From IMG/VR virus record IMGVR_UViG_3300044608_001893, positions 1 to 22,303 of that record: a DNA stretch of 22,303 nt. The stretch is one strand, 5' to 3'. The first letter of the stretch is position 1; each line of letters opens with the position of its first letter. Made by a program: the position numbers and the translations under genes. This document shows positions 3,519-19,008 of the stretch, piece by piece. This DNA is from a virus. Below the pieces are notes generated by a model that saw only the letters and a program-made list of their open reading frames with translations, was not told where the DNA came from and did not search any database.

Positions 3519-3724
3519 TGACTTCCGCTGCCCTTCGCTCCACCTTGGCCTCGCTCGGGTGGAGCACTCGGCATTTGGCCCGCCTGCTCGGCATCCCGGA
3601 GCGCACGCCAGGCAACTGGACGATGGGTCGCTATGCCGTCCCGGCCGATGTCGCCGCGTGGCTTCAGCGCCGGCTTTCCGAGCATCAGCGCATGATGCGT
3701 GACGATCCACCGCCCCAGGCATAG
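3518..3724 (+). CDS. Cro-like helix-turn-helix protein
   Basis: A 68-residue protein containing a compact helix-turn-helix: LGWSTRHLARLLGIPERTPG at residues 13-32, followed by NWTMGRYAVPADVAAWLQRR. The pattern (helix, turn at LGI, recognition helix ending in NW, then VP...VAAWL) is characteristic of small Cro/YdaS-like DNA-binding proteins. The start is the ATG at 3518, which shares its A with the preceding TGA; a TTG three bases earlier is less likely. It lies 8 nt before the integrase gene and could control the palindromic promoter at 2955-3000 or integrase expression. Confidence 0.72.
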   Translation: MTSAALRSTLASLGWSTRHLARLLGIPERTPGNWTMGRYAVPADVAAWLQRRLSEHQRMMRDDPPPQA

Positions 3725-3732
3725 GAGCCGCC

Positions 3733-4908
3733 ATGTCGCGCCACACCATCCGCCATCTGGTCGAGAAGCCCGGCGCCCACGGCCCGCGCTGGTACTGGCA
3801 GCCCAGCGCCCAGCTGCGCGCCGATGGCTGGCGCCCCCAGCGCCTGCTGGCCAACACCTTGGCGGACGCCATGAAGCTGGCCGAGGAACTGAACGCCGAA
3901 GTGGATGCCAAGCGCGCCAGCCTGCCCACCGGCAAGGCCGCGAAGGCCCCGGCCGGCAGCGTGCTGGCCATGATCCAGGCCTACAAGGCCAGCAAGTGGT
4001 GGCCCAAGGGCGAGCGCACCCGCAAGGATTACGGCCACTACCTCGATGCCATCGCCACCTGGGCGGGCGACATGCCGTCGCGCGCCGTCACTCCGCGCGC
4101 GGTCCAGGCCTTCCACACGGCCATGGAAACCCGCACCGAAGGCAAGGGCCGCCACCGCCGCACCATCCACACGCCCGCCCGCGCCGCCGCCGCCGTGCGC
4201 GTGCTGTCGGCCCTGTTCAGTGCCGGCGTGCGCCTGGGCTTCGTCGCCACAAACCCTGCCCTCCGGGCCGGCATCAGCGTGGCACGCCAGCGCGAGCCGG
4301 TGCTGTGGCCCCGCGCGGAGCTGGACCACATGGTGGCCACGGCCGACGCCATGGGCTGGCACAGCCAGGGCACCGCCATGCTGATGAACTACTGGTGCGG
4401 CCAGCGTCAGGCGGACATCCTGCACCTGGCGCCCTGGGCCCTGGAGCACGGCGCCATCGTGCTGAAGCAGCGGAAGCGCGGTCGCAAGGTCAGCCTGCCG
4501 GTGCACCTGGTGCCGGAGCTGGTGACCAGGCTGGAGGTCGATCGCGCCCGCACCACCACCGTGGCCAGCCTCACCCACCTGCTCCTGCACGAAGGCACCG
4601 GCCGCCCCTGGCAGCCCTACACCTTCACTCACACCTTTGCCGAGATCCGCGCCAAGGCCGCCGCCGGCGATCCGGCTCTGAACCTCCCCGCCATGCCCAG
4701 CTGCGCCAGCCTGCGCTGGATGGAACTGCGCCACACGGCCGTCACCGCCCTCAAGGCCGCCGGCCTCGATGCCCTGGCGATCAGCAGCATCACCGGCCAC
4801 ACCGCCCAAAGCGTGCAAGCGATCCTCGATCGCCACTACCTCGTCCGCACCACCGAAGCCGCCGAACACGCGTTCAAGGCCCGGCTGGCGAAGGAAGGCG
4901 GGGCCTAG
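3733..4908 (+). CDS. int: Tyrosine-family site-specific integrase
   Basis: A 391-residue protein of normal phage-integrase length. An N-terminal DNA-binding region (about 1-180, with the core-binding part near 70-170) precedes the catalytic domain. Visible catalytic elements are Arg225 in NYWCGQRQADIL, Arg333 in MELRHTAVTAL, Gly355-His356 in SITGHT and the nucleophile candidate Tyr369 in DRHYLVR. The usual His of the HxxR box (position 330) is Met here. The ATG at 3733 follows AGGAG (3724-3728). The TAG overlaps the GTG start of the HNH gene by one base. The enzyme would recombine the phage attP with the host attB; the tRNA-Thr fragment at 5285-5329 is its probable target. Confidence 0.93.
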   Translation: MSRHTIRHLVEKPGAHGPRWYWQPSAQLRADGWRPQRLLANTLADAMKLAEELNAEVDAKRASLPTGKAAKAPAGSVLAMIQAYKASKWWPKGERTRKDYGHYLDAIATWAGDMPSRAVTPRAVQAFHTAMETRTEGKGRHRRTIHTPARAAAAVRVLSALFSAGVRLGFVATNPALRAGISVARQREPVLWPRAELDHMVATADAMGWHSQGTAMLMNYWCGQRQADILHLAPWALEHGAIVLKQRKRGRKVSLPVHLVPELVTRLEVDRARTTTVASLTHLLLHEGTGRPWQPYTFTHTFAEIRAKAAAGDPALNLPAMPSCASLRWMELRHTAVTALKAAGLDALAISSITGHTAQSVQAILDRHYLVRTTEAAEHAFKARLAKEGGA

Positions 4909-5987: not shown

Positions 5988-7637
5988 TCAGTACACCACG
6001 TTGTTGCCGTTGCTGGCGCTGCCGGCGCCGATCACGGTGACGGTGCCGTTGGTGACGTTGCCGGCAATCACATTGAAGTCGGCGGTGCCGCTTTCCAGGA
6101 TCGACACGGCCACGCCGGTGCTGTCGCACAGATTGCCCTGCACCACGCTGCGGGTGCAGCGCAGCCTGATGTCGTTGTTGCTGTTGCCGGCCAGGTGGTT
6201 GCCCATCACGACGTGCTTTTCGCCCTGCAGGTCGATCCCGTACGTGTTGGTGGGGGCGCGGTTGCCCACCAGCTGCAAGGCGCGGCAATTGGCATCGGCC
6301 TGCACGCCGGGCGTGGCCGGGCTGCCGACGCCGGTGGAAAGGTCGCAGGTGGCCACCTTCCAGTTTGCGGCGTTGATGAAGGTCAGCGGCCCGCCGCTGC
6401 AGTTAGTGAAAGCGCAGCCGGTGAAGCTGCCCCAATCCTGGCCGGACACGCCGCCGCCCTTCACCTGGCCGTTGGTGTTGAAGGCGGTCACCCGCACGCC
6501 CTCGTCGGCCGTGCCGCCGCTGCCGGTGATGTAGATCCCGTAGTCGCTGCCGCTCTGGGCATAGCCGCCGTTCACTTCGGTGTCGGTGCAGGTGTCGATG
6601 TGGATCCCGATCGCCGCGGCGGTGCAGCGGATGGTGTCCAGGATGGTGCTGGCACAGAACCGCAGGTTAATCCCGCGCGCCCCGCCAGTGATGTAGAGGT
6701 CTTCCAGCGAAACGAAGCTGCACCGCTTGGCCACGTCGGTGCCGTCCAGGTGCACGGCATACACGCCGGTATAGCCCCCGGCGGAGAAGCCCAGCCGGCG
6801 GATCGTGAACGGGAAGGCGGGCGCGGCGGCCACGTATTTCAGCAGCCGCAGGTTGTTGGCGCCGGCCACCAGCGTCGTGATCAGCGGATCATCGCCGATC
6901 ACGGTGACGTTCGGCTTCAGCGTCACGTCGCTGTTCAGCCTGTAGGTGCCGGGGCGCAGGTACACCACGCCGCTGGTCAGGCTGTTGATGGCGGCCTGCA
7001 GCGCGGCGGCGCAGTCGGCGGTGCCGGTGTTGTCGGCGCCATGGTCGCGCACCAGGTCCACATGCGCCGGCCCGCCCAAGGTCAGGCGGGCGGTGCGCAG
7101 CGCGGCGGCGGCCACCACGGGGACCATGGGGGCGGAAACCGTGGCGGTGCCGCTGGCCGGCAGGCCCACGGTGATGTCGCCGTTGGCGTCGGTGATCACG
7201 TTCATGCTGCGCCGGCTGGCGCGCGCGGGCAGCACGGGCTGGTCGGCCTCGCCATCGGGCACGCGCAGGGTGCGGCGCTGGGCGGCCAGGGCTTCCTGGG
7301 CCAGGGCGGTGCCGCGGTCCACGATGCGCTCCACGGTGGGGCCGGGCAGCGGGTCGGCGTTGTTGAGGCGCACCTGCTGGGTAGGCACGGTGGCGCGCAG
7401 GATGCGCCAGGTCACGCCCACGGCGGGGGCGGCCAGGGCGGTGATGCTGCCGCTGGCGCCGTCGCCCCCGGCCACGGTGTAGTCGGTGCCGCGCGCCAGC
7501 GTGGTCAGCACGCCGGCCGCGCTGGTCTGGTGCACGGCGAGCTCATCCGGCCCGAAGAACACGAAGGGCACCGGAAAGACGGTGCTGGCACCATCGCCGG
7601 CATAGGCAATGCTGGTATCGAGCGAGGGCAAAGTCAT
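5988..7637 (-). CDS. Tailspike with T7-fibre-like N-terminus and pectate-lyase beta-helix
   Basis: A 549-residue receptor-binding protein. Residues 1-130 form a virion-attachment domain of the type heading many podoviral fibres (SIAYAGDGASTVFPVPFVFF, then TDYTVAGG, then TVERIVDRGTALAQEALAAQ). From about 190 a pectate-lyase-type beta-helix begins (VDLVRDHGADNTGTADCAAA, then GVVYLRPGTYRLN) and continues as Asn/Gly-rich coils to the end. Such spikes bind and often cleave capsule or lipopolysaccharide; catalytic residues cannot be assigned by eye. ATG 7637 overlaps the upstream stop by ATGA. Longer open frames reaching 9557 are only extensions into the neighbouring gene. The protein corresponds in position to T7 gp17. 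Confidence 0.86.
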   Translation of the reverse strand: MTLPSLDTSIAYAGDGASTVFPVPFVFFGPDELAVHQTSAAGVLTTLARGTDYTVAGGDGASGSITALAAPAVGVTWRILRATVPTQQVRLNNADPLPGPTVERIVDRGTALAQEALAAQRRTLRVPDGEADQPVLPARASRRSMNVITDANGDITVGLPASGTATVSAPMVPVVAAAALRTARLTLGGPAHVDLVRDHGADNTGTADCAAALQAAINSLTSGVVYLRPGTYRLNSDVTLKPNVTVIGDDPLITTLVAGANNLRLLKYVAAAPAFPFTIRRLGFSAGGYTGVYAVHLDGTDVAKRCSFVSLEDLYITGGARGINLRFCASTILDTIRCTAAAIGIHIDTCTDTEVNGGYAQSGSDYGIYITGSGGTADEGVRVTAFNTNGQVKGGGVSGQDWGSFTGCAFTNCSGGPLTFINAANWKVATCDLSTGVGSPATPGVQADANCRALQLVGNRAPTNTYGIDLQGEKHVVMGNHLAGNSNNDIRLRCTRSVVQGNLCDSTGVAVSILESGTADFNVIAGNVTNGTVTVIGAGSASNGNNVVY

Positions 7638-10030
7638 CGGACGGCCTCCGTGGGTCGCAGCCAAAAGGTCTGGTTGTTGTCGCGCTTCACGCGCTGCTCC
7701 ATCCGCCGCAGGTAGCCGGGGTTCGCCCATTCCTGCAGGCGGTAGATCACGGCGTAGTCTAGGCCGGCGCGGGCGTAGAACAGGTTGACGAACGGGGTGT
7801 GGCCCACGCCCAGCCGGATCGCCTCGGCGGCGGCGTTGCCCTCGCCGCGCGCGGCGCTCAGCAGCTTCTGCACGCCCTCGATGCTGCCGGCGGTGGGGCC
7901 GGCCAGCGTGCTGATGAACCCGCCGCCCACGCGGTTGGCCTCGCCGAACAGGAAGTCGCCATAGATGCCGAGCCCGCCGCCCTGCACCATGGCGGCGGCC
8001 ACCAGCTTGCCGTAGCTGGCGGCGTCGTCGGGCTCGCGCGGGTTGCGGCCCTTCGCTAGGTCCTTCAGCGTCATGGAGAGATAGCCCAGCGCCGTGGTGG
8101 CGGCGATCAGGTGGGCCAGCCCGCCCGCGTCGATGCCGTCGCGCCGGAACTCGCGGCCGAGGCTGCGGGTCATGTAGGTGATGGTGAAGGTCTTGAACTG
8201 CATCAGCAGGCGCACCAGCTCGCCGGCCGGCGTGCCGGCCTGGGTGCCCAGCGAGGCCATGGCGCGCACGCCGGCGGTGGTCTCTGTCATGCCCTCGCGC
8301 ACCTGGTCGGCGTAGTAGGCGGCGAGCTTGCGGGCGCTGTCGGCATCGGCCACGGCCTCGGGCAGCAGGTAGGCGGTGCCGTCGGCCGTGCGCTGCGGGG
8401 CGGCGCGGATGGCGTCCCACTCCGCGCCCTCGATGGAATAGCGGCGCAGCGTGGCTTGCAGGCGGGGCGGCAGGTCGGGAAAGGCACGGGCGGCGCTGTC
8501 GGCCAGGTTGCTGGCCAGCATCAGGCCGCTGGTGCGCTTCATGGCGTCGTTCCAGTAGGCCAGGCCGTTGAACTTGTAGAAGACGTTGGTCGCCCGGCTG
8601 ATGCGGCCGGACAGCGCCTCGTCGGTGCCCAGCCGGGCGGCCACGTCGCCCAGCAGCGTGTCGATGCCCACGCCCAGCGCGCGCGCCACCTGCTGGGTCT
8701 CGGGGCCCTTGGGGATCAGCGCCGTCATCTCGCGGGCATAGGCGTGGAACAGCGGGATGCCGTTGTGCCTCAACATCGCCGCGTTCACGGCGAGGTCGGG
8801 CAGGGAGGACAGCACCACGCCGCCCAGCTTTGCCAGCTGCTGCAGGGCGCGCACGGTGGCGCCGGCCTGGGCCAGCGTGGCGCTGCCGGGGATGGCGGCG
8901 CGGCCGTCCAGCACTTCCAGCACGCGCTGGGGGAAGCTGCTGGCCAGCGCCTCGGTGGCCTTGAAGTCGCCGCGGTCGCGGGCGGCGGTGCGCAGGCGAT
9001 CGATCCAGCCGTCCAGCATGGCCTGGGGGTTGGTGCCGAACTGGCGCATCAGGGTCACGTCCCGCGCGCCTTTTTCCAGGCTTGCGGTGATGCTGTCGGC
9101 CACCGCGCCGCGGCCGAACTGCACGTTGTAGTCGAACCAGGCGTCGGCATCCTTGAAGATCAGCACGCGCTCCTGGCTGACTTTCTTGGCGAGGTTGGCG
9201 GGGCCGGAGAAGCCGGCCAGCGTGTCGCTGGTGCTGGTGCCGTGCACGCCGCTGGACAGGTTCAGCCAGACGTTGCGCAGGAACTGCTCGGGGTCGGGCG
9301 CATCCCGGAAGGTGATCGGGTCCAGGCGCGGCAGGATGGTGTCGCGCCACGCGGCATAGGCGGCATCGCTGCCATCGCCACGGATCTTGAACAGGTCGTG
9401 GCTCTGGCGGGTGATGTAATGGTCCTGCCTGCCGATGAAGGCGCCGGCATCGTTCAGCTGCTGGCGCAGGGCCTCCTGGTATTTGCCCATGATCCTGGCC
9501 GCCTCGGCCGCGTGACGGTTGCCGGTGGCGGGCAGCGTCTGGTCCCGCGCACGCCACAGCTCGCGGGCCAGGTCGCGCTCGAACGCCTCGTCGCGGGTGC
9601 GCAGGGCGCGCAGCAGGCCGGCGGCTTCCAGGTCGTGCTGGAGGCCGCCCAGAAGCTGGTTCCGCAGGCCTTGCCAGTTTGCGTCGACGCTGTCGGCCAG
9701 GCCGCGATCGGTGCCGCGCTGCACGCCGGTGAGGCTGGCCAGCACGCTGTCATACTCGCGGCCGGCGATCACGCGCGCGTCCAGCCGGCGGCGGGCCAGC
9801 AGGTTGATCGCCTCCTGCTTGCGCTCGATCGCCGCGGCCATGCGGATCTCGCCGCCCAGCTCGGCGCCGGCCCGCTGCGCGGCGGACAGGCTGTCCATGC
9901 CCTGCGCCTGGTAGTGGCGGGTGCGGTTTTGTGCCCGCGTGAAGATGCGGTTCTGCTCGGCCTCGGACAGCTCGCGGCCGGCGGCGGTGTTGGCGGCGGC
10001 AAGACAGGCCTGGAAATTGCTGCCGCTCAT
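7634..10030 (-). CDS. Large internal virion (ejection) protein
   Basis: A 798-residue, mainly helical protein with no enzymatic motif that I recognise. The conserved-looking C-terminus starts near residue 693 (FLFGEANRVGGGFISTLAGP) and runs through HTPFVNLFYARAGLDY to LQEWANPGYLRRMEQR. I associate this ending with large internal core proteins of T7-like podoviruses that infect alpha- and gammaproteobacteria. Hydrophobic stretches such as AHLIAATTALGYLSMTL could contact membrane after ejection. ATG 10030 overlaps the preceding stop by ATGA; an upstream in-frame ATG at 10048 is less likely. It lies directly before the tailspike, in the position of T7 gp16, and would travel into the host envelope during DNA delivery. 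Confidence 0.75.
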   Translation of the reverse strand: MSGSNFQACLAAANTAAGRELSEAEQNRIFTRAQNRTRHYQAQGMDSLSAAQRAGAELGGEIRMAAAIERKQEAINLLARRRLDARVIAGREYDSVLASLTGVQRGTDRGLADSVDANWQGLRNQLLGGLQHDLEAAGLLRALRTRDEAFERDLARELWRARDQTLPATGNRHAAEAARIMGKYQEALRQQLNDAGAFIGRQDHYITRQSHDLFKIRGDGSDAAYAAWRDTILPRLDPITFRDAPDPEQFLRNVWLNLSSGVHGTSTSDTLAGFSGPANLAKKVSQERVLIFKDADAWFDYNVQFGRGAVADSITASLEKGARDVTLMRQFGTNPQAMLDGWIDRLRTAARDRGDFKATEALASSFPQRVLEVLDGRAAIPGSATLAQAGATVRALQQLAKLGGVVLSSLPDLAVNAAMLRHNGIPLFHAYAREMTALIPKGPETQQVARALGVGIDTLLGDVAARLGTDEALSGRISRATNVFYKFNGLAYWNDAMKRTSGLMLASNLADSAARAFPDLPPRLQATLRRYSIEGAEWDAIRAAPQRTADGTAYLLPEAVADADSARKLAAYYADQVREGMTETTAGVRAMASLGTQAGTPAGELVRLLMQFKTFTITYMTRSLGREFRRDGIDAGGLAHLIAATTALGYLSMTLKDLAKGRNPREPDDAASYGKLVAAAMVQGGGLGIYGDFLFGEANRVGGGFISTLAGPTAGSIEGVQKLLSAARGEGNAAAEAIRLGVGHTPFVNLFYARAGLDYAVIYRLQEWANPGYLRRMEQRVKRDNNQTFWLRPTEAVR

Positions 10031-12360
10031 CGCACACCCACCAGACACAGCGCCGCCTGTTCGGTGGCGCGGGCTTCGCTGTCGGCCAGGGCCACGTTGT
10101 CGCGCAGGCGGGCCAGCGTGGCCTGCTCGTCCGGCGCCAGCGGCAGCGCCTCCAGCTGCTGGGCGATGCGGTCGGCGTCGGCGGTGAGCGCCGCCAGCTC
10201 GGGGTCGATGGCAGCGGCGCCTCGCGCTGCGCTGCCGGCGCGGGCGGGCGCCGCCTCCACCATGCGCGCCACCTCGCGGCTGGCCTGCACGTCCTCCGGC
10301 GCGGCGCGCGGGGCGGCGGCGAGGTCGTCCAGCACGCGGGCGGTGGCGGCCTCGGGGTCGATGTGGCGCATGGCGGCGCGCAGCAGGTCGGCGGCGCCGG
10401 CGGGCGGGGTGCCGAACAGGTCCGGGCCGGGCTGCACCTGCAGCGCCTGGTCGCCGTAGCGGCCCAGCAGCTCGGCCAGCGGCTCGCGGCCCAGCGCGCG
10501 GTTCATCGCCTCGTCGCGGTGCATCAGGCGCAGCAGCGCCATGGTGGCCGGGCCGGGCGGGGCGGCGAAGGCATCGGCCTGGGCCAGCAGCTCGGCCACG
10601 CTCTTGCCCTCGCGCCGCGCGCGCTCCACCAGCTGCACCGCCTCGCCCAGCGCGGCGGTGATGTCCAGGTCCGGCGGGATTTCGCCGCGGGCGGCGGCGG
10701 CGCGCATGCGGCCCCAGGGGCCGGCGGTGTCGGCCAGGGCGCCGGCGATGCCCTTCAGGTTGTCGGCCTCGCCGTTCAGCAGCTTGTCCAGCAGCGGGCC
10801 GAGCGCATCGCCGTAGCTGTGGGCCAGGATCGCCTGGCGCAGGCGCTGCTCGCCCGCGGCGGACAGGCGGCCATCGGCCAGCAGGTTGCCGCGCTCCTCC
10901 GCCGGCAGCATGGCCAGGAAGCTGCGCGTGAAGTCCCGGTTCTGGCTGCTGGTGAGCTGGCCGGGCATCAGCTGGTCGATGGCGCGGCCGGCGCGGTCGG
11001 CATCGGCGCGGGCCTGCTCGGCGGCGCCCATGGCCAGGTTCGGCCGCTCGTTGGCACCGCGCGCGAAGGCAGCGGCCTGCTCGGGTGTGAAGTCGGACAC
11101 GCGCCGGCCCACCAGCACCGGGCGCTCGATGCCGGTCAGGTCGTAGCCCTGCGCTTCCAGGAACGCGCGATAGGCCTGGGCACGGTGGCCAAGCTCGGCG
11201 GTGTCATACACGCGCTGCAGCGCCGCGATGCGGCCGTTGCCGCTTTCCACCACCCCGCGCGCGTCCACGAGGGGCGCGCCAGCACCGGCTTCCGGGCTTG
11301 GGGCCAGACGTTCCGGCTGAAGGTTCGCGGCAATGGCACCGATCTGGTCCTGGCTTCCTGCGGTGGAACGGTCGCGCGGCTGCAGCCCCTCCGCGTGCGG
11401 GTAGGCGGGGTTCACGGTGCCGTCGGCCATGTGGCTGGGGATCAGGGCGGACAGGTCCACCACCTCCGGCCGCGCTTCCACGCGCAGGCCGCCGGGGGTG
11501 AAGGCGGCATAGGCGCCGGCCTGCGCCTCGCGCGCCACCTCGCGGTAGCTGGTGGCGCCAGGCAGGTTCACCAGCGGCGCCACGTCCACCGGCCGGCCCT
11601 CGGCCACGGCGGCGACGGCGCCGCGCAGCATGCCCTCGCGGATCGGCGCCGGCATGTTGCCCATGGCGGCCTCGATCGGCGTGCGGCGGCCCCGTATGGC
11701 ATCGGCCGCGGCGCCGCCCAGCGTGTGCAGCCCGCCGCCCAGCACGCCGCCGAAGGCGATGGCGCCCAGCGTGTCGGTCATGCTGCGGTCGTTGAACTCG
11801 GCGCGGCTGAGGGCATATTCGGCCGGCTCCAGGATGGCCATGCCGGCCGCACCGCTGACGGCGCCGGCGGCGGCGCGGCCGGCGGTGATGCTGGTGGTGC
11901 CCATCAGCTGCATCAACCGCGCCTCGCGCACGAAGGGGATCAGCGCGGCGCCGAGGTTCACCGGGTCCAGGATGGCGGTGCCGAAGGTAAGCGCCAGGCG
12001 CGCGGCGCCGGAGGTGGCCAGCGTGTCGGGCCGGCGGGCGATGATCGCCTGGCGCCGCTGCTCCGCCTCGCGCGCCTCGCGCAGCGCGCTGGCCACGCCC
12101 TCCGTCACCGGCCGGTCGAAGCTGAGCACGCCGGGGATGCCGTAGGTGGCGTTGGCTTCTTCTGCCGCCAGCGTGCGGCCGGGCTCGGCGGTGCCGCGGC
12201 TGAACCAGTCCCACAGGCGCGGGCCGATGCTGCCGGCCCATGCGCTGCCGGCGGTGGCGGCCAGCACCTCGCCGGTGCTGGCCTCGATGCTGTCAAGCCC
12301 GCGCGCCTGCACCGCCTGCGCGGCGGCGGGGCTGCCCAGCCAGAGGCCCGTGCCGCTCAT
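10027..12360 (-). CDS. Large internal virion protein with ParB/DdrB-like domain
   Basis: A 777-residue protein, second of three giant internal proteins. Residues about 303-445 match the DdrB/ParB-like domain pattern known from phage and conjugative-element polyvalent proteins: LQPRDRSTAGSQDQIGAIA, then APLVDARGVVESGNGRIAAL with the ParB-type G-N-G-R box at 374-377, then YRAFLEAQGYDL and PVLVGRR. The N-terminal 300 residues include a Gly/Ala-rich hydrophobic segment (198-216) that may be membrane-active. The remaining C-terminal third is helical, with coiled-coil-like Ala/Arg/Glu content. The start is ATG 12360 from the ATGA overlap; open frame continuing upstream to 13152 is non-genic. As an ejected protein it may act on DNA inside the host cell, which is inference. 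Confidence 0.78.
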   Translation of the reverse strand: MSGTGLWLGSPAAAQAVQARGLDSIEASTGEVLAATAGSAWAGSIGPRLWDWFSRGTAEPGRTLAAEEANATYGIPGVLSFDRPVTEGVASALREAREAEQRRQAIIARRPDTLATSGAARLALTFGTAILDPVNLGAALIPFVREARLMQLMGTTSITAGRAAAGAVSGAAGMAILEPAEYALSRAEFNDRSMTDTLGAIAFGGVLGGGLHTLGGAAADAIRGRRTPIEAAMGNMPAPIREGMLRGAVAAVAEGRPVDVAPLVNLPGATSYREVAREAQAGAYAAFTPGGLRVEARPEVVDLSALIPSHMADGTVNPAYPHAEGLQPRDRSTAGSQDQIGAIAANLQPERLAPSPEAGAGAPLVDARGVVESGNGRIAALQRVYDTAELGHRAQAYRAFLEAQGYDLTGIERPVLVGRRVSDFTPEQAAAFARGANERPNLAMGAAEQARADADRAGRAIDQLMPGQLTSSQNRDFTRSFLAMLPAEERGNLLADGRLSAAGEQRLRQAILAHSYGDALGPLLDKLLNGEADNLKGIAGALADTAGPWGRMRAAAARGEIPPDLDITAALGEAVQLVERARREGKSVAELLAQADAFAAPPGPATMALLRLMHRDEAMNRALGREPLAELLGRYGDQALQVQPGPDLFGTPPAGAADLLRAAMRHIDPEAATARVLDDLAAAPRAAPEDVQASREVARMVEAAPARAGSAARGAAAIDPELAALTADADRIAQQLEALPLAPDEQATLARLRDNVALADSEARATEQAALCLVGVR

Positions 12361-15002
12361 CGGTCCTGCCTCAGCCGCGGGCCGCGGGCGCCGGCGGGAT
12401 CGGGCTGTTCCTCTGCGGTGGCCGCAGGATCGTCGCGCGGGGGCAGGCGGTTGAACAGCACTTCGATCGGCGCGCCGCCGGGCCGGGTCAGGTTCACGAT
12501 GCTGCCGCCGGGCGTGCGGGCCACCAGCACGGCGCCGGAGGCATCGGCGTTGTTGATCCAGAACCCGCGGCGCGCTGCGTCCAGCGTGGCCGGGCGGCGT
12601 TCGTTGGGCGTGGCGGCGGGGCGGGTAGGGTCCGGCAGGGCGGCAACGTCGGTCAGTTGCAGGCCGCTGCGCACGCGGTCCAGCGCCGTCTCGATCTCGC
12701 CGGCGCGGCCCTTCGGCACCAGCATGGTGGGCGTGCGGCCGAACCAGCCGGTGCCGTCGTCGCCGGCGGTGTCCCAGCGCGCGCCGATCACGTCCTGATA
12801 GGCGCGCTCGGCGGCCTCCGGCGCCTTCATGCCGCGCCATGCGTGATACAGCGCCAGCGTGTTCACGGCCTGGCGCATGGTGGCGAACAGGCCGTCGCCG
12901 CCGGGGTGGTAGCGGGTGGCCTCGCGCAGCGGCTGCAGCGCGCCGTCCACCTCGCCGTCGAACCCCTTCAGCACGTCGGGCGGCACCAGCTTCTTCATGG
13001 CTTCCGGCCCGCCCTTTTCGGCCTGGAACACCAGGGCGCGCTGCAACAGGGCGCGGCCCTCGGCCTGCGCCGGGGCGGTCATGGCGGCGATCGCCTGCCA
13101 TTCCCAGCCGATCTTGCCGTGCTGCACCAGCTCGCCATAGGCGCGGTTCCACAGCTCGGGGCCGAAGCGCTCGGCGAGCGCGGCCAGCGTGCCGGCCATG
13201 TCCTGCTTCTCGGGCCCGGTGGTGCGCAGGGTGGCGGCGAGTTGCTGCACCTGGCCGTCGTTCAGGATGCGCTGGCGCCAGGCCGGCACACCCATGCGCG
13301 TTTGGGCGGCCAGGCTGGCCGTGGCGATTTCCGGCATGGGCGCGTCGCGCTGGATCAGCGCCTGCACCTCGGGCGATTGCAGCGCCACCTGGGCGGGATC
13401 GTCGGCCAGCGCGCGGCGCTTGGCGGCCACCGCCTGGTCGAACCGGGCCAGCACCTGCTGGCGCTCCCCGGCCAGGCGCGGGTCGGCGGCGTCGCCGGCC
13501 AGCTGCGCGCGCAACGCCACCTCGTCGGCCGGGCTGGCGAACTGCACGGCGCGGTAGGCATCGCCGGCGCTGCGTTCCAGCGTCAGCGTGTCGATCGCGC
13601 GCTGGGCGGCATCGGGCGGCAGCAGCGCGCGGATCTGGCCTTCCGGGATGGTGGCGCCGGTGTTGCCCTGGCCGTAGCTGGCGGAGAGATCGGCCAGCTG
13701 GCGGCCCAGCACGGCGCGGGCCTGCTCGCTGCCGGCCTGCTCGTTGTTCAGCATCTGCGCCACCAGGGACTGGCCCTGCAGCTGCACGTGCAGCGGCTCG
13801 TCGGCCAGGCGCTGCTGCACGTCGGCCAGCAGCGCGCCCTTCTGCGCCTCGCTGCGTTCGGCACCGGCCGGGGTCAGGCGGTTCAGCACCTGCGCCACGT
13901 AGCGCGACACGCTCATGCCGTTGCCGTCGCGGCGGTCCTCTTTCCAGGGCGTCGGGCTGCCGGGCGGGGCAATGTTGCCGGGGCCGGAGAAGTAGCCCAC
14001 GGCGATGCGGGCGGGATCGCCGCCGGCGCGGGCGGCCAGGTCGTCGATGATGCGCCGGCCGACGGCTTCGTTGTCGGCCGGGTTGTCGATGTTCTCGCCG
14101 GGGCGGGCATACTGCGCCCAGGTGCCGGGCATGATCTGCATGCGGCCGCGCGCGCCATCCACCGACACTTGGCCGTCGCGCCCGCCGCTCTCCTGCATCA
14201 GGATGGCCTGGTAGATGTCGCCGGCGGTGCCGCGCGCGCCCATGGTGGCGGTGGCGGCGCCCTGGGCGCGGCTGCGCTCCAGCGGGGCGCGCAGGCTGGT
14301 GGTCAGCTGCGCCACCGTGCCGGCGTCCATCTCGCCCTTGTAGCGCTCCAGCAGCGCCTGCGCGCCCTGCGGGTCCGCGGCGGCGCGCAGCGTCACGGCC
14401 TGGGCGATGGCGCGGCTGAACAACGGCGTGGCATCGGCCTGGGTGTAGAGCCCGGCGGCGACGTTGCCGGCGATGCCGGCCTTGATCGCCTGCACGTGCT
14501 GCAGCAGCTGCGGCTCGTCGCGGGCGGCGGCGATCTGCTGCGCCTGGGTGCCCAGCGTGTCGGCGAACTGGCCGCGCAAATTGCCGATGTGGCGCTGGCT
14601 GGCCGCGCTGCTCACCTGGCGGTAGGCGGTGGGGATCAGCTGGGTGTCCAGCGAGCGCGCCACCAGCCCGGCCACGGCGGGGTCCAGCCCCTCGATCGCG
14701 GCGGCGCGGAACTCGGCGGCTTTCTCGCGGAAACGCTGCGGCACGCTGGCCGGGTCGGGGTCGGCATCGAAGCCGCGCTGCATGTCGGCGATGTCCATGG
14801 ACAGCGCAGCCACGCGGCCGGCGGCATCGTTCACCGCGCGCGCCTGGTCGGCCGCGGCCCAGAGGTTCATGAACTGGCCGGACACCTGGGCCAGGTTTTG
14901 CGCCAGCGTGTCGGACACGAGGCTGGCCGCGCGCGGATCCGGCCCGCGGGCGGTCAGCGGGGCCACGGGGGCGTTGTAGCCTTCGCGGCTGGTGTAGCTC
15001 AT
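12357..15002 (-). CDS. Internal virion protein with lytic transglycosylase domain
   Basis: An 881-residue protein. Residues about 259-375 form a soluble-lytic-transglycosylase-type domain. The sequence IYQAILMQESGG carries the catalytic Glu271, GARGRMQIMPGTWAQYA follows, and GYFSGPGNI matches the family's A-Y-N-A-G-P-G box. Flanking regions are long helical segments without recognised enzymes. T7 gp16 carries a comparable domain at its N-terminus, where it opens peptidoglycan for the ejection tube; here it is internal, after about 250 helical residues. ATG 15002 lies behind a GAGGCGCAAGGA leader and the gene ends by ATGA overlap with the next. Role: local cell-wall digestion during infection. 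Confidence 0.87.
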   Translation of the reverse strand: MSYTSREGYNAPVAPLTARGPDPRAASLVSDTLAQNLAQVSGQFMNLWAAADQARAVNDAAGRVAALSMDIADMQRGFDADPDPASVPQRFREKAAEFRAAAIEGLDPAVAGLVARSLDTQLIPTAYRQVSSAASQRHIGNLRGQFADTLGTQAQQIAAARDEPQLLQHVQAIKAGIAGNVAAGLYTQADATPLFSRAIAQAVTLRAAADPQGAQALLERYKGEMDAGTVAQLTTSLRAPLERSRAQGAATATMGARGTAGDIYQAILMQESGGRDGQVSVDGARGRMQIMPGTWAQYARPGENIDNPADNEAVGRRIIDDLAARAGGDPARIAVGYFSGPGNIAPPGSPTPWKEDRRDGNGMSVSRYVAQVLNRLTPAGAERSEAQKGALLADVQQRLADEPLHVQLQGQSLVAQMLNNEQAGSEQARAVLGRQLADLSASYGQGNTGATIPEGQIRALLPPDAAQRAIDTLTLERSAGDAYRAVQFASPADEVALRAQLAGDAADPRLAGERQQVLARFDQAVAAKRRALADDPAQVALQSPEVQALIQRDAPMPEIATASLAAQTRMGVPAWRQRILNDGQVQQLAATLRTTGPEKQDMAGTLAALAERFGPELWNRAYGELVQHGKIGWEWQAIAAMTAPAQAEGRALLQRALVFQAEKGGPEAMKKLVPPDVLKGFDGEVDGALQPLREATRYHPGGDGLFATMRQAVNTLALYHAWRGMKAPEAAERAYQDVIGARWDTAGDDGTGWFGRTPTMLVPKGRAGEIETALDRVRSGLQLTDVAALPDPTRPAATPNERRPATLDAARRGFWINNADASGAVLVARTPGGSIVNLTRPGGAPIEVLFNRLPPRDDPAATAEEQPDPAGARGPRLRQDR

Positions 15003-15005
15003 GTC

Positions 15006-15043
15006 CTTGCGCCTCGCGCGCGCGCTGCCGGCGTCATGCCATC
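15006..15043 (-). promoter_or_regulatory. Repeated translation leader, copy upstream of the transglycosylase gene
   Basis: On the - strand this stretch reads GATGGCA...CGCCGGCAGC...GCGCGAGGCGCAAG and ends 3 nt before the ATG at 15002. Nearly the same block precedes the tail gene at 18398. It contains the GAGG ribosome site. The match also covers the end of the preceding gene, so it is a duplicated segment rather than a chance ribosome site. Function beyond initiation is unknown. Confidence 0.5.
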
Positions 15044-15585
15044 CCCCAGCCGGCGCCCACGCCGCCGGGCGCCCGCATCCGCAGCTGCGTGGTGCCGTAT
15101 TGCGCCAGCCCGCCCAGCAGCGTGGTGCCGCCGCGGATCAGCCCGGCGGTGCTGGCGGCATCGGCGGCGCTGTCGTTGAAGCCGGCCTGAGCCTCCAGCC
15201 CGCCCGCCTGGGCCAGCGCACCCTGCGCCGCGCTGCGGCCTTTCCAGCGCTGGATGGCGGCATCCAGCGCGCCTTCCGCCGCCATGTCGCCCATCAGGTC
15301 CAGCGGGCTGCCGTAGGTCGGATCGCCGCCGCTGCTGCCAGCCAGGTTGAACGCGCTGGCCACCCGGCGGCGCGTGCCGGCCTCCGTGCGCGCGGCCTCG
15401 GCTTCGGCCTGGTTCAGCTGCACCGCGGCGTTGATGCGCGTCTGCTGGGCGTTGCGGCGATCGGCTTCCGCCTGCTGCTCCAGCGCGGCGGCCTGCTGCT
15501 GGCCGCCCATCACGGCGTTGATGGTGCTGATGCCGGCGCTGGCCGCGGCCAGGTAGGGCGCGGCAAGGATCAGGGTTTCAGCCAC
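15034..15585 (-). CDS. T7 gp14-like internal virion protein
   Basis: A 183-residue protein with a hydrophobic N-terminus (LILAAPYLAAASAGISTINA, residues 4-23). A long Ala/Gln/Glu coiled coil (about 28-85, QQAAALEQQAEADRRNAQQT) and a Gly/Ser-rich, flexible second half follow (NLAGSSGGDPTYGSPLD). This layout is shared with T7 gp14, the internal protein that inserts in the outer membrane during ejection. Gene order also agrees, as it follows the gp13-like gene and precedes the giant internal proteins. It overlaps the gp13-like gene by 8 nt, which fixes the start at ATG 15585. Confidence 0.78.
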   Translation of the reverse strand: MAETLILAAPYLAAASAGISTINAVMGGQQQAAALEQQAEADRRNAQQTRINAAVQLNQAEAEAARTEAGTRRRVASAFNLAGSSGGDPTYGSPLDLMGDMAAEGALDAAIQRWKGRSAAQGALAQAGGLEAQAGFNDSAADAASTAGLIRGGTTLLGGLAQYGTTQLRMRAPGGVGAGWGMA

Positions 15586-16030
15586 CGGCCTGTGCTCCCA
15601 TGCGCTGGTTCACCTTGGCCCAGCGGTCGTAGTCGGCGCCGTCGTGGCCGTAGCCCGGCATGGGCCCCTCCGGCCGGAAGCCCAGCAGCGCCAGCCAGCG
15701 CGCACCCGGTTCCCAGCCGGTCAGCGCCTCGGCCTCGATGCGGTGCAGCCGCAGCTCGCGCTGGGCTTCGGCCAGTTGGCGGCGCACGCGCGCGGTCAGC
15801 CATGGCCAGGCGCGCGCGGGCAGGTCGGCGCCGATCAGGCACCAGGTGCCGGCGCGGCCGGGCCAGTGGATCACCAGCCCGGCACAGGCCAGCACCTGGC
15901 CGTCGTGCAGCGCGGTCCAGCACGGGCCGGCGTCCGGCAGGCTGGCGGCGGCCTGGCGCATCGGGGCGGCGATCGGCGCGCGGGTGCGCATGCGCTCCAG
16001 GTCCAGGGGCTCGAAGGGGCGCACGATCAT
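15578..16030 (-). CDS. T7 gp13-like GNAT-fold protein
   Basis: A 150-residue protein resembling the GNAT-fold phage family represented by T7 gp13 (DUF2833). A basic segment LTARVRRQLAEAQREL precedes LHRIEAEALTGWEPGARWLA and LLGFRPEGPMPGYGHDGADY, matching the last strand-helix-strand of GNAT proteins. The acetyl-CoA-binding Q/RxxGxG/A loop is not obvious, so enzymatic activity is doubtful. In T7 the counterpart is needed for assembly of the internal core. The start overlaps the tail B stop by ATGA and the gene is followed by the gp14-like gene, as in T7. Confidence 0.8.
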   Translation of the reverse strand: MIVRPFEPLDLERMRTRAPIAAPMRQAAASLPDAGPCWTALHDGQVLACAGLVIHWPGRAGTWCLIGADLPARAWPWLTARVRRQLAEAQRELRLHRIEAEALTGWEPGARWLALLGFRPEGPMPGYGHDGADYDRWAKVNQRMGAQAGG

Positions 16031-17787
16031 TGCGCCTCCACCTCCTGAATTACGGCCAGGATCGTGAAGGGCAGCGGCTCGTCGTGCAGGATCTCCAGCT
16101 GGCCGCTGCCCCAGCGGCTGCGCGGCGTCACGTCGTAGTCGCCGCTGAACAGCGGCACCGCCTGCCCCATGGCATGCACCTGCAGCCGGTAGGCGAGGCT
16201 TTCATGCGGCATGCCAGGCCCGGCCACGCTGCCGCCGCCGCTGTGCAGCAGGCGCAGCGTGGCGCCCACCACGCGCTTCTTGCTGCCCTGGCTGGTGGCC
16301 GCGCCCTGCACCGGCACCTCCGGCTCCAGCGTCAGCACGCGGGCGCGGTAGGCCAGGCCCACATGCACCTTGCGCGCCGCCGTGCCGGTGATCGGCACGC
16401 TGCCGGCCGTCACCACCTGGCTGTCGCGCACGCTGCCATCGGCCACGATCGCCACCGTCTGCCCTTCCAGGTGGTCCAGCCCGGCCACGGTGTTGACGGT
16501 CACGGCGCTGTCGAGCGTCAGGCCGGCATCCACCATGAAGGCATCGGCCGGGGGCTCGGCCTCGCCGTCGAACGGGTCGCGCATCCATTCCACCGTGCGG
16601 GTGGTGGTGCCGCCGAAGGTCCGCGCCACCGACACGTACAGGTCGCTGCTGGTGCCGGCCGGATCGGGCACGGCTGCGATGCTTTCCACCAGCCCGTCGG
16701 CGATCTCCAGCAGGGTCCAGGCGCGCATCTTCTGGTCGGCATCGAAGGTCAGCGCGGCGATCCTGCCGTCGGGCCGCAGGCCGTAGAACGTGCCGTGCGG
16801 CAGGTCGGCATAGGCCGTCTCGATGAAGCCGCCGCCGGTGATGTGGTCGGCCAGGGCCGACAGGTCCTGCGTGGTGAAGCGGTCGATGCCGAAATCGTAT
16901 TCCAGCTGGCGCAGCTTCCGCCCGCCGCGCTGCGGAAACAGGATCAGGCCGGAAACGCGCTGCGGCATGCAGCCGGCATCGCTGCCGCGGTCGCCCTGCC
17001 GGTCGGCGCTGATGTTGCCCGGGGCCAGCGCGCCGTTGCGGTTCAGCGGCGTGATCAGGAATTCGCCGCTGGCGGTGCCGGCCGCCAGCCCGCGCGGCGA
17101 GGGCAGCAGCCAGCGCGCGGTGTTCACCTGGTCGTCGTCCAGCGCGTAGCTGATGGCGTTGGTGTCCAGCACGGTGCCGTCCGGCTCGGTGGGGGCGAAG
17201 CTCTCGAAGTCGCCGGCCTCGCTGGCCCATGCGGTCTGCGGGCGGGCCGCGCTGCCGAACATCCACAGCCGGTTCTTGTAGAAGGTGCCGGCGATTGGCC
17301 AGCCGCGCGCGTCGTTCCACTCGCCCATGCGCCAGCGCAGGCTGCCATAGGTGGCCGCGAACGGGCCGCGCGGGTGGATCGTCACGTTCACCACCGTGCT
17401 GCTGGTGAAGCCGGTGATGGTGCACCACCCCCATACATGCCGGCCGGGGCCGAGGTATTTCAGCACGGCCGAGCCGTCCAGCACGGTGGGGTTGATCTCG
17501 TTCGGCGCGGCCAGGTCGTAATCCGGCGTGGTGCCGGCCAGGCTGGCGGCCGCGGTGGTGCCGGCGCGGGTCACGCGATACAGGCGCGGCACCTGGTTGT
17601 ATTCCGAGATGAGGATGCGCCCGGCGGTGTAGGCGGTGGCGGCGGCGCGCACCGTGTCGCAGCGGTGCAGGATGCCGATCAGCCGGCCCACGTCGCTGGC
17701 GGTGAACAGCGCGGCGCTGGCCGTGACGGTGGCGGCGCCGGAGCCATGCGCCACGCTGGACGCCAAGGTGATGCTGGTGTCGGTCAT
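16027..17787 (-). CDS. Tail tubular protein B-like, C-terminal part (separate gene)
   Basis: A 586-residue protein corresponding to the larger part of gp12-like nozzle proteins. The N-terminus (ATVTASAALFTASDVGRLIG, residues 19-38) and the segment at 154-197 (MGEWNDARGWPIAGTFYKNR, then LWMFGSAARPQTAWAS and GDFESF) are hallmark stretches of this family. DDDQVNTARWLLPSPRGLAA and SGEFLITPLN follow. In homologues I know, these features sit in one polypeptide of roughly 800 residues together with the domain encoded here by the gene at 17784-18398. The two genes overlap by ATGA. The product would form the distal tail tube that carries the tailspikes. Confidence 0.82.
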   Translation of the reverse strand: MTDTSITLASSVAHGSGAATVTASAALFTASDVGRLIGILHRCDTVRAAATAYTAGRILISEYNQVPRLYRVTRAGTTAAASLAGTTPDYDLAAPNEINPTVLDGSAVLKYLGPGRHVWGWCTITGFTSSTVVNVTIHPRGPFAATYGSLRWRMGEWNDARGWPIAGTFYKNRLWMFGSAARPQTAWASEAGDFESFAPTEPDGTVLDTNAISYALDDDQVNTARWLLPSPRGLAAGTASGEFLITPLNRNGALAPGNISADRQGDRGSDAGCMPQRVSGLILFPQRGGRKLRQLEYDFGIDRFTTQDLSALADHITGGGFIETAYADLPHGTFYGLRPDGRIAALTFDADQKMRAWTLLEIADGLVESIAAVPDPAGTSSDLYVSVARTFGGTTTRTVEWMRDPFDGEAEPPADAFMVDAGLTLDSAVTVNTVAGLDHLEGQTVAIVADGSVRDSQVVTAGSVPITGTAARKVHVGLAYRARVLTLEPEVPVQGAATSQGSKKRVVGATLRLLHSGGGSVAGPGMPHESLAYRLQVHAMGQAVPLFSGDYDVTPRSRWGSGQLEILHDEPLPFTILAVIQEVEAQ

Positions 17788-18398
17788 GAGGCGCCTTCAC
17801 CGCCGAAGCCGGGATCGCGGCCGTCGCCCACGCCGCTGCCGGTGGCCTCCTCCGCCGCCGTGCCGGTCTCGGTGCCGGAACTGGTGGCGCTGGGGGCGGC
17901 GGCGCCCACGTCGCCGGTGTTCTCCGGCCCGAAGGGGCCGTTCTCGAACGCCACCGGGGCGATGCTGAACACGCCCGCGGCGCTGCGGGTGATCTTGCGG
18001 GTCTGGTAGCTGCCGTGGAACACGTAGGCGACATCGGCCGATTGCGCGAACTTCAGCTCCCGCAAATGCGCGAGCCCGTAGGGGGTGGCCACTTCCTGCG
18101 GCACGCCGCTGGCCTGCACCTGGCCGCGGTTGCGATAGACGCGGAAATAGAGGTCGCCGAACTCCAGCACATAGGCCACCACGGACGAGACCACGAAGGG
18201 CACCAGCCGCACGCGGCCGGCTTTCGCGGTGGTGACGTGGTAGGTGCCGGAACGCTTTGTGGCGCCACCCTGCGGCAGCACCACCATGTTGGTCAGGTCC
18301 TCCGCGCCCGCGGCATATTGCTGCAGGTCGATGCGCCCGCGCATGCGCCGGCTGAGCATGCCGGCCGCGAAGCTCGGCTGAATGATCGTCACCGCCAT
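17784..18398 (-). CDS. Tail tubular protein B-like, N-terminal part (separate gene)
   Basis: A 204-residue protein starting MAVTIIQPSFAAGMLSRRMR, the typical opening of gp12-like tail nozzle proteins. LTNMVVLPQGGATKRSGTYH, LVPFVVSSVVAYVLEFGDLY and LRELKFAQSADVAYVFHGSY follow, all conserved features of the family's first domain. The protein ends in a Gly/Ser/Thr/Glu-rich linker (about 150-204) and stops at the point where homologues continue into the domain encoded by the next gene. Fusion to the following frame would need a -1 shift, and I see no slippery heptamer near the overlap. A split gene with coupled translation is my preferred reading; a sequencing error is the alternative. Confidence 0.82.
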   Translation of the reverse strand: MAVTIIQPSFAAGMLSRRMRGRIDLQQYAAGAEDLTNMVVLPQGGATKRSGTYHVTTAKAGRVRLVPFVVSSVVAYVLEFGDLYFRVYRNRGQVQASGVPQEVATPYGLAHLRELKFAQSADVAYVFHGSYQTRKITRSAAGVFSIAPVAFENGPFGPENTGDVGAAAPSATSSGTETGTAAEEATGSGVGDGRDPGFGGEGAS

Positions 18399-18400
18399 TA

Positions 18401-18436
18401 CTTGCGCCTCGCGCTTGGCTGCCGGCGTGCCATCAG
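18401..18436 (-). promoter_or_regulatory. Repeated translation leader, copy upstream of the tail B gene
   Basis: On the - strand it reads TGATGGCACGCCGGCAGC...GCGCGAGGCGCAAG and lies 2 nt before the ATG at 18398. It matches the leader at 15006-15043 over about 30 of 36 positions, including the GAGG ribosome site and part of the upstream gene's stop region. Confidence 0.5.
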
Positions 18437-19008
18437 AACCGCGCGTTCACGAGAATGTCAGCCGGCGCATACTGGGGCTTGGGCGTGCCCTCGGCGGCAT
18501 CGGTCTGGCGGGCGAGGCGGCGCGCCTCCACCAGCTCGGCGGCGATCTGCGCGCGCTGCTGCGCGCTGGCGGACAGCGGGATGCACAACCGTTCCGCCAG
18601 CATCGCGGCCACCAGGCGCGCGAACAGCGGCGCCCAGTGGCCGGTATCCGCATGGCGCTGGATGTACTGCACCTGCAAGGGCGCGGCCATGTTGCACAGG
18701 ATCAGGTTGCCCTCGCGTTCCCAGGGCTCGTGCGGGTCGGCGCTGGCCACGGCCAGGATGCGCAGGCAGTCGGCCGGCACCTGGAACTGCCCGGTCCATT
18801 CGAAGGCCGGCGCGGTGGGGCTGGCGGGCAGGCTGGCGCGGCGCTTGGCGAAATTCCACGGATGCAGCGCCAGCGCCTCGTCGCGCACCTGCGGCAGGAA
18901 CTCCGCGCACAGCCTGGCCTCCTTGCTGGTGTCCGTGTCCAGGCTGACGATGCGCTCGTCGCCCACCAGGGACAGGGCCAGATTGGCAATTTCCGTCAGG
19001 CTGGGCAT
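18433..19008 (-). CDS. Tail tubular protein A-like (T7 gp11-like) adaptor
   Basis: A 191-residue protein of the gp11-like family. It opens LTEIANLALSLVGDERIVSL, then has SKEARLCAEFLPQVRDEALA and LHPWNFAKRRASL, the usual N-terminal helices and HPWNFA box. A beta-rich middle (WTGQFQVPADCLRILAV) and helical end (LVAAMLAERLCIPLSASAQQ) complete it. These proteins form the ring joining portal to tail nozzle. ATG 19008 has GGAGG 9 nt upstream. The length is normal for the family, and the following gene is the gp12-like one, as in T7. Confidence 0.88.
   Translation of the reverse strand: MPSLTEIANLALSLVGDERIVSLDTDTSKEARLCAEFLPQVRDEALALHPWNFAKRRASLPASPTAPAFEWTGQFQVPADCLRILAVASADPHEPWEREGNLILCNMAAPLQVQYIQRHADTGHWAPLFARLVAAMLAERLCIPLSASAQQRAQIAAELVEARRLARQTDAAEGTPKPQYAPADILVNARF

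Follow-up and report, generated by a model that had tools for sequence, protein, structure and literature searches.

A ddrB-ParB module at the epsilon15 gp16 position of a short-tailed phage: candidate exchangeable cargo of a putative ejection-protein carrier

Why a ParB-like domain should lie within what appears to be an internal virion protein of a short-tailed phage (podovirus), and whether it could reach the host together with the DNA, is the question raised by a 777-amino-acid reading frame near the middle of the window, the whole stretch of 22,303 nucleotides analysed here. The frame is real: it overlaps each neighbouring gene by an ATGA at its start and stop, its GC content at the three codon positions is 0.79/0.57/0.94, and for its ParB-like module dN is much lower than dS. 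On the same strand lie scaffold, capsid and tail genes, followed by genes for a gp14-like protein, an SLT transglycosylase protein, the 777-residue protein (hereafter the carrier) and a gp17-like pilot. The features of this region are as follows.

15034..15585, minus strand: gp14-like internal virion protein (phrog_418)
12357..15002, minus strand: internal protein with an SLT lytic transglycosylase domain and without cysteine, at the epsilon15 gp15 position
10027..12360, minus strand: carrier protein of 777 aa that occupies the epsilon15 gp16 slot (putative middle ejection protein), with the ddrB-ParB module; open reading frame with ATGA overlaps on both sides
11506..12360, minus strand: N-terminal helical region of the carrier, residues 1-285 (phrog_3003), common to slot proteins with other cargo or none
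10045..10047, minus strand: C772, sole cysteine of the carrier, in its C-terminal helix; proposed staple partner is C9 of gp17
7634..10030, minus strand: gp17-like pilot protein, 798 aa, with N-terminal Cys9 (phrog_684); its C-terminal half matches the T7 gp16 family phrog_342

In order to define the domain, we searched the carrier against Pfam and obtained a match to PF18763 (ddrB-ParB) over residues 293-420 with 105.1 bits and an E value of 3.5e-30, the curated cut-off of this family being 27.6 bits. There was no second match elsewhere in the record, and the family was absent from all 14 control genomes. A DdrB/ParB-like domain had been predicted from the sequence at 11026-11454 (residues 303-445); the domain itself proved real, and its borders had to be moved, as the start was about ten residues off and the end fell just short of the conserved Glu448. 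The true unit is larger and extends over about residues 272-645 (ParB core plus a helical part, roughly 370-400 residues). Its parts are listed below.

11101..11484, minus strand: Pfam PF18763 ddrB-ParB match, residues 293-420 (Pfam search)
11368..11382, minus strand: QPRDR box, residues 327-331, with Q327, R329 and R331 invariant in 64 relatives
11230..11250, minus strand: VESGNGR box, residues 371-377, invariant in an alignment of 64 modules
11170..11172, minus strand: Y397, invariant tyrosine in the extra helix that characterises DdrB-type ParB domains (helix described in PMC5512222)
11017..11052, minus strand: third conserved box, with N437 (conserved in 90% or more) and E448 (invariant)
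10426..10995, minus strand: helical part, residues 456-645, which makes up the second half of the module and accompanies the ParB core in almost every full-length match

Using a DNA pattern for VVESGNGR to fetch loci and a profile search, we found the unit of about 400 residues in 119 viral loci, where it is part of slot proteins, short solo proteins or very long polyvalent proteins. A gp17 gene was also present in 35 of these loci, and in 28 of them a slot protein lay directly upstream of it under a strict rule. Sixteen columns were invariant among 64 representative modules, including Q327, R329, R331, the VVESGNGR box, Y397 and E448, and all 16 are intact in the window; the VESGNGR box had already been picked out in the original prediction. 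Comparing the window with two relatives of about 76% identity (L003 and L004) gave dN of 0.09-0.12 against dS of 0.60-0.71 for the ParB core, and the N-terminal part of the carrier was faster-evolving (dN 0.17-0.28, dS 0.42-0.56). The module is thus under purifying selection. An AlphaFold2 model of the module had a mean pLDDT of 92.9, and a fold search of BFVD with the full-length model returned DdrB-like proteins first, with E values from 2.5e-55 downward.

The assignment of the module to the DdrB-type family is accepted. The arginine of the active-site pocket box (R377 of GNGR) is invariant in 64 sequences, the extra helix is formed by residues 388-403 around Y397, and the gene lies in a late, virion-protein neighbourhood between the SLT internal protein and the gp17-type pilot. 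The family prototype, DdrB of phage P1, shares with the window the PF18763 domain, the helical part that follows it, the late virion neighbourhood, the conserved arginine and the inserted tyrosine helix, but it carries a C-terminal peptidase domain (PMC5512222), whereas the window module is embedded in a podovirus ejection-type protein that has core parts of its own at both termini. DdrB-like ParB domains were named by Iyer et al. 2017, who found them beside virion and late genes and fused to lysozyme, and who proposed their injection (PMC5512222); P1 DdrB is in turn a known head protein (PMC9024508). The domain therefore does not qualify as an undescribed injected effector, for which it had been put forward as the best candidate: it is a new member of a known family, and what is new is the carrier slot and the cysteine staple proposed below. 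No account of either the slot or the cysteine pair was found in the open-access literature searched, and within that scope this novelty is provisional; a paper on phage Peru-2 concerns a T7-like phage and contains nothing on the slot.

Kinship with canonical partition proteins is supported by Pfam, the literature and the order of the boxes, short of proof. The module shares with ParB, Noc and KorB partition CTPases the order QxR, GxxR, N, E, and the best fold match in the PDB (Foldseek) was the ParB-family protein Noc, but at a non-significant E value of 0.27. A second tier of BFVD matches was rich in ParB and ParB/sulfiredoxin proteins, likewise non-significant (E 0.02-0.9). Profile comparison (hhalign) against eight plasmid ParB/KorB proteins was non-significant for the module (P 0.056) and for its trimmed core (P 0.17), a gp17 control gave a comparable score, and no ParA gene was seen among the window proteins scanned, the record being partial. 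A nuclease or CTPase activity would be a superfamily expectation, to which the canonical ParB comparisons add a suggestive, non-significant likeness. Searches of PDB sequences with the 777-residue protein and with the module profile gave just designed helical repeats and chance matches, no relative turned up when the protein was searched against species-representative bacterial genomes, and PADLOC gave no defence-system match.

We then compared the setting of the carrier with that of other phages. Relatives of the gp17-like pilot occur in 113 phage records, phiV10 and further epsilon15-like phages among them, and a slot protein of 424-956 aa precedes the pilot gene in epsilon15, Piluca, TPWB-05 and Pseudomonas, Vibrio, Pelagibacter, Stenotrophomonas, Yersinia and Burkholderia phages, with one small gene separating the two in TPWB-05. 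A profile seeded with the N-terminus of the window carrier collected 74 slot reading frames with differing middles after three rounds, and its matches were strong for Pseudomonas, Vibrio, Pelagibacter and Stenotrophomonas phages (first-round E 1e-10 or better). Because the N-terminal match was non-significant for epsilon15 gp16, Piluca and TPWB-05, these three were equated with the carrier by position and cysteine pattern. Epsilon15 gp16 resembles the carrier in its slot between gp15- and gp17-type genes and in its single C-terminal cysteine, and differs in having no recognised cargo and an N-terminus that the window profile does not significantly match. The equivalents in Alcaligenes phage Piluca (gp047) and Acinetobacter phage TPWB-05 share the slot and the single C-terminal cysteine and also contain ddrB-ParB (139 and 145 bits), but differ by an SLT-type stretch that precedes the ParB domain, above the Pfam cut-off in TPWB-05 and just below it in Piluca. 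The position of the window gene between a lytic transglycosylase gene of gp15 type and a gp17 pilot gene supports its reading as the epsilon15 gp16 counterpart. The predicted location of a DdrB/ParB-type domain in an internal virion-type protein agrees with this gp15-gp16-gp17 synteny and with the order-wise kinship to T7 gp16 described below.

To sample the slot in a way that is blind to its cargo, loci were fetched by a DNA pattern for the gp17 motif QGGGxGIYGDFLF, which replaced an alignment of 13 divergent gp17 proteins that was too diverse for locus search. This gave 119 loci, 69 of them with a complete upstream slot reading frame and 62 after removal of near-copies. The ends of these 62 slot proteins are conserved and the middle is variable. 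Pfam detected ddrB-ParB in four, a zeta toxin/AAA domain in four, ART-PolyVal in two (one above the cut-off) and SLT in one; Vibrio phage 1.182.O has ART-PolyVal (64 bits) at the equivalent place of its slot protein. None of 57 gp17 neighbours had a Pfam domain, and in gp15 peptidoglycan (wall) hydrolases were the sole domain type. The coefficient of variation of length was 0.40 for slot proteins, 0.16 for gp15 and 0.04 for gp17. Mapped on the N-terminal-region tree, the ddrB state requires six changes, as does the slot state on the module tree, and in each case starred branches force at least two of them; these counts are rough, as the method was quick and the deep branches are weak. In our reading, a conserved carrier has had its cargo exchanged repeatedly, and the slot protein looks like a vehicle that is reused to deliver different proteins together with the DNA. 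Since most slot proteins are without recognised cargo, the cargo would be dispensable for the basic job of the slot.

A second conserved region, with a DGHQR box, was present in about 14-15 further slot proteins, and the zeta-type kinases found fall in that group. The IADGHQR form of the region, missed by Pfam, was noted in L020, L039, L055, L072, L080, L084, L086, L097, L112, L120, L124, L126, L129, L130 and L131, and several of these slot proteins also have a zeta-toxin-type kinase. Profile comparison gave no link of this region to ddrB-ParB or ParB, and it is therefore called ParB-like by motif only.

A second regularity concerns cysteines. Exactly one cysteine was found in 58 of the 62 slot proteins, and in 61 of 62 a cysteine lies within the last 20 residues (about 3.5% by chance); in gp17, 56 of 57 proteins have one within the first 60 residues, usually as the sole cysteine and most often 3-13 residues after the start, and 32 of 37 gp15 proteins have none. 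The window follows this pattern with C772 of 777 as the single cysteine of the carrier and C9 in gp17, as does epsilon15 with a cysteine at position -6 from the end of gp16 and C5 in gp17. The pair was present in 14 of 15 named phages, epsilon15 included, and in 79 split pairs. Among the named phages, the annotated start of APEC gp5 lacks the cysteine and the TPWB-05 pilot has a second one; other apparent exceptions were on inspection mostly wrong neighbouring reading frames or late alignment starts, with L081 and L236 remaining as possible exceptions. An IMG/VR contig reading frame in which carrier and pilot are fused (L056/L267, 2749 aa; relative L268) has no cysteine at all, and neither has T7 gp16 in its 1318 residues. 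This contrast, between cysteines at the facing ends of carrier and pilot and none in the fusion, was noted for the window, L056/L267 and L266. A further candidate slot-gp17 fusion, L133, was set aside, its N-terminal part being tail-protein-like by eye and without a carrier match.

T7 gp16 itself, which is ejected into the host (PMC8954989), weakly matches the N-terminus of the carrier over residues 266-421 and the pilot over residues 1090-1150, in the same order, and its family phrog_342 is matched by 29 of the 62 slot proteins and by the window pilot. It differs from the pair in forming a single chain, in having a transglycosylase of its own and in lacking both a ParB module and cysteines. 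These matches are short and low-scoring, so that together with the PHROG grouping they point to a possible kinship of carrier and pilot with T7 gp16. Because facing-end cysteines occur in split pairs and none in the fusion or in T7 gp16, we infer a disulfide staple: the pattern suggests that carrier and pilot are bonded as halves of a split T7-gp16-like protein and that the bond is needless once the protein is one chain, as in the fused lineages, a small sample of two. The cysteines may instead form homodimers or be thiols with another role. The wider proposal is that epsilon15-type phages have T7 gp16 in two pieces, disulfide-joined from carrier end to pilot start, with an exchangeable effector bay in the carrier (ddrB-ParB, ADP-ribosyltransferase, zeta-type kinase or transglycosylase) whose content enters the cytoplasm together with the ejection core; we put this forward tentatively, as somewhat less probable than its negation.

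For the window itself, we propose a three-gene ejection cassette in which the middle protein carries ddrB-ParB as cargo that acts early on the incoming DNA, and we consider this about evenly poised between right and wrong. The carrier would be the middle member between lytic transglycosylase and pilot; carrier and pilot would correspond to a T7 gp16 cut in two, with the conserved N-terminal helices and the C-terminal helix anchoring the carrier in the ejection core, C772 disulfide-bonded to pilot Cys9 in the virion, and the ddrB-ParB module as cargo in the middle. Upon infection the core would leave the head and cross the envelope. In T7, the ejection proteins are the first to exit the head and form a channel, and the C-terminal part of gp16 is presumed to reach the cytoplasm (PMC8954989); the module, if carrier and pilot are indeed equivalent to T7 gp16, would be carried along to the cytoplasmic side. 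There it may bind nucleotide via its QPRxR, GNGR and N/E boxes. P1 DdrB was detected in the phage head by mass spectrometry (PMC9024508), is non-essential on a laboratory host (PMC10695390) and, with Ulx and DarB, has a role in protecting incoming DNA from type I restriction (PMC12810830). Our first choice for the early action is therefore protection or conditioning of the incoming DNA in the manner of P1 Dar proteins, an antirestriction-type role with a possible effect on the host, ranked before a DNA-clamp or assembly function and a nuclease or nucleotidase function.

ParB proteins are DNA clamps, which counts towards the second of these roles. The module could be a part for assembly and delivery, a nucleotide-gated clamp that ties the core to the packaged DNA so that both exit jointly. 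The location of the module in an otherwise structural protein fits this, as does the listing of P1 DdrB as aiding the addition of DarB to the capsid (PMC9024508). However, most slot proteins are without the module and some have an ART, a zeta-type kinase or a transglycosylase at the equivalent place, which fits cargo better, and the module also exists by itself as a solo protein and within giant polyvalent proteins. We regard the clamp as unlikely, though worth serious consideration. That the module acts as a nuclease or nucleotidase, damaging the DNA or the nucleotide pools of the host as infection begins, appears improbable: Iyer et al. name nuclease/NTPase activity among other ParB/Srx domains, and for the DdrB-like family they suggest that NTPs are sensed or degraded, but they also report that DdrB-like domains are neither replaced by nor joined with other DNases in polyvalent proteins (PMC5512222), and no activity of any DdrB-type domain is known from the literature surveyed.

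The gene product might also be made late, act within the producing cell in assembly or regulation, and be left unpackaged. In a review the core density of epsilon15 is assigned to gp17 alone (PMC5850374), which leaves gp16 as a putative virion component. Against this stand the translational coupling between two internal-protein genes, the presence of P1 DdrB in the head, and the order of and profile matches to T7 gp16 together with the cysteines paired with gp17, which link the carrier to the core; we therefore think an unpackaged protein very improbable. The idea of a functionless segment, decayed or similar to ParB by chance, has next to no probability, as no supporting point was found and it is already contradicted by the Pfam E value, the retention of every invariant residue, the low dN/dS of the module and the confident fold.

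If the preferred reading of the carrier as a delivery vehicle for ddrB-ParB is true, an obscure ejection protein of a widespread podovirus group becomes a mapped vehicle, and candidate early effectors can be listed from the slot of any genome of this kind. The cysteine pair would bear on the cohesion of the ejection core and on the relation of T7 gp16 to epsilon15 gp16/gp17, and the DdrB domain, known since P1 and with no defined activity in the literature surveyed, would gain a tractable small-phage setting.

Elsewhere in the window, a tail protein (phrog_376) is split into two genes (17784-18446 and 16027-17796) that overlap by an ATGA; the frame change is also seen in L002 and L004, and L003 appears to retain a single frame. 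The frame after the pilot gene (5988-7634) is beta-helix tailspike-like by eye. Two tandem paralogues (86-961 and 973-1938), for which no family match was obtained, have near-identical N- and C-termini with long Ala/Tyr-rich repeats of unequal length between them. On the plus strand, 3703-4908 encodes a tyrosine-type integrase (phrog_1 match with E 8e-20; Pfam score of 25.2 bits, slightly short of the cut-off), and the phage is therefore probably temperate.
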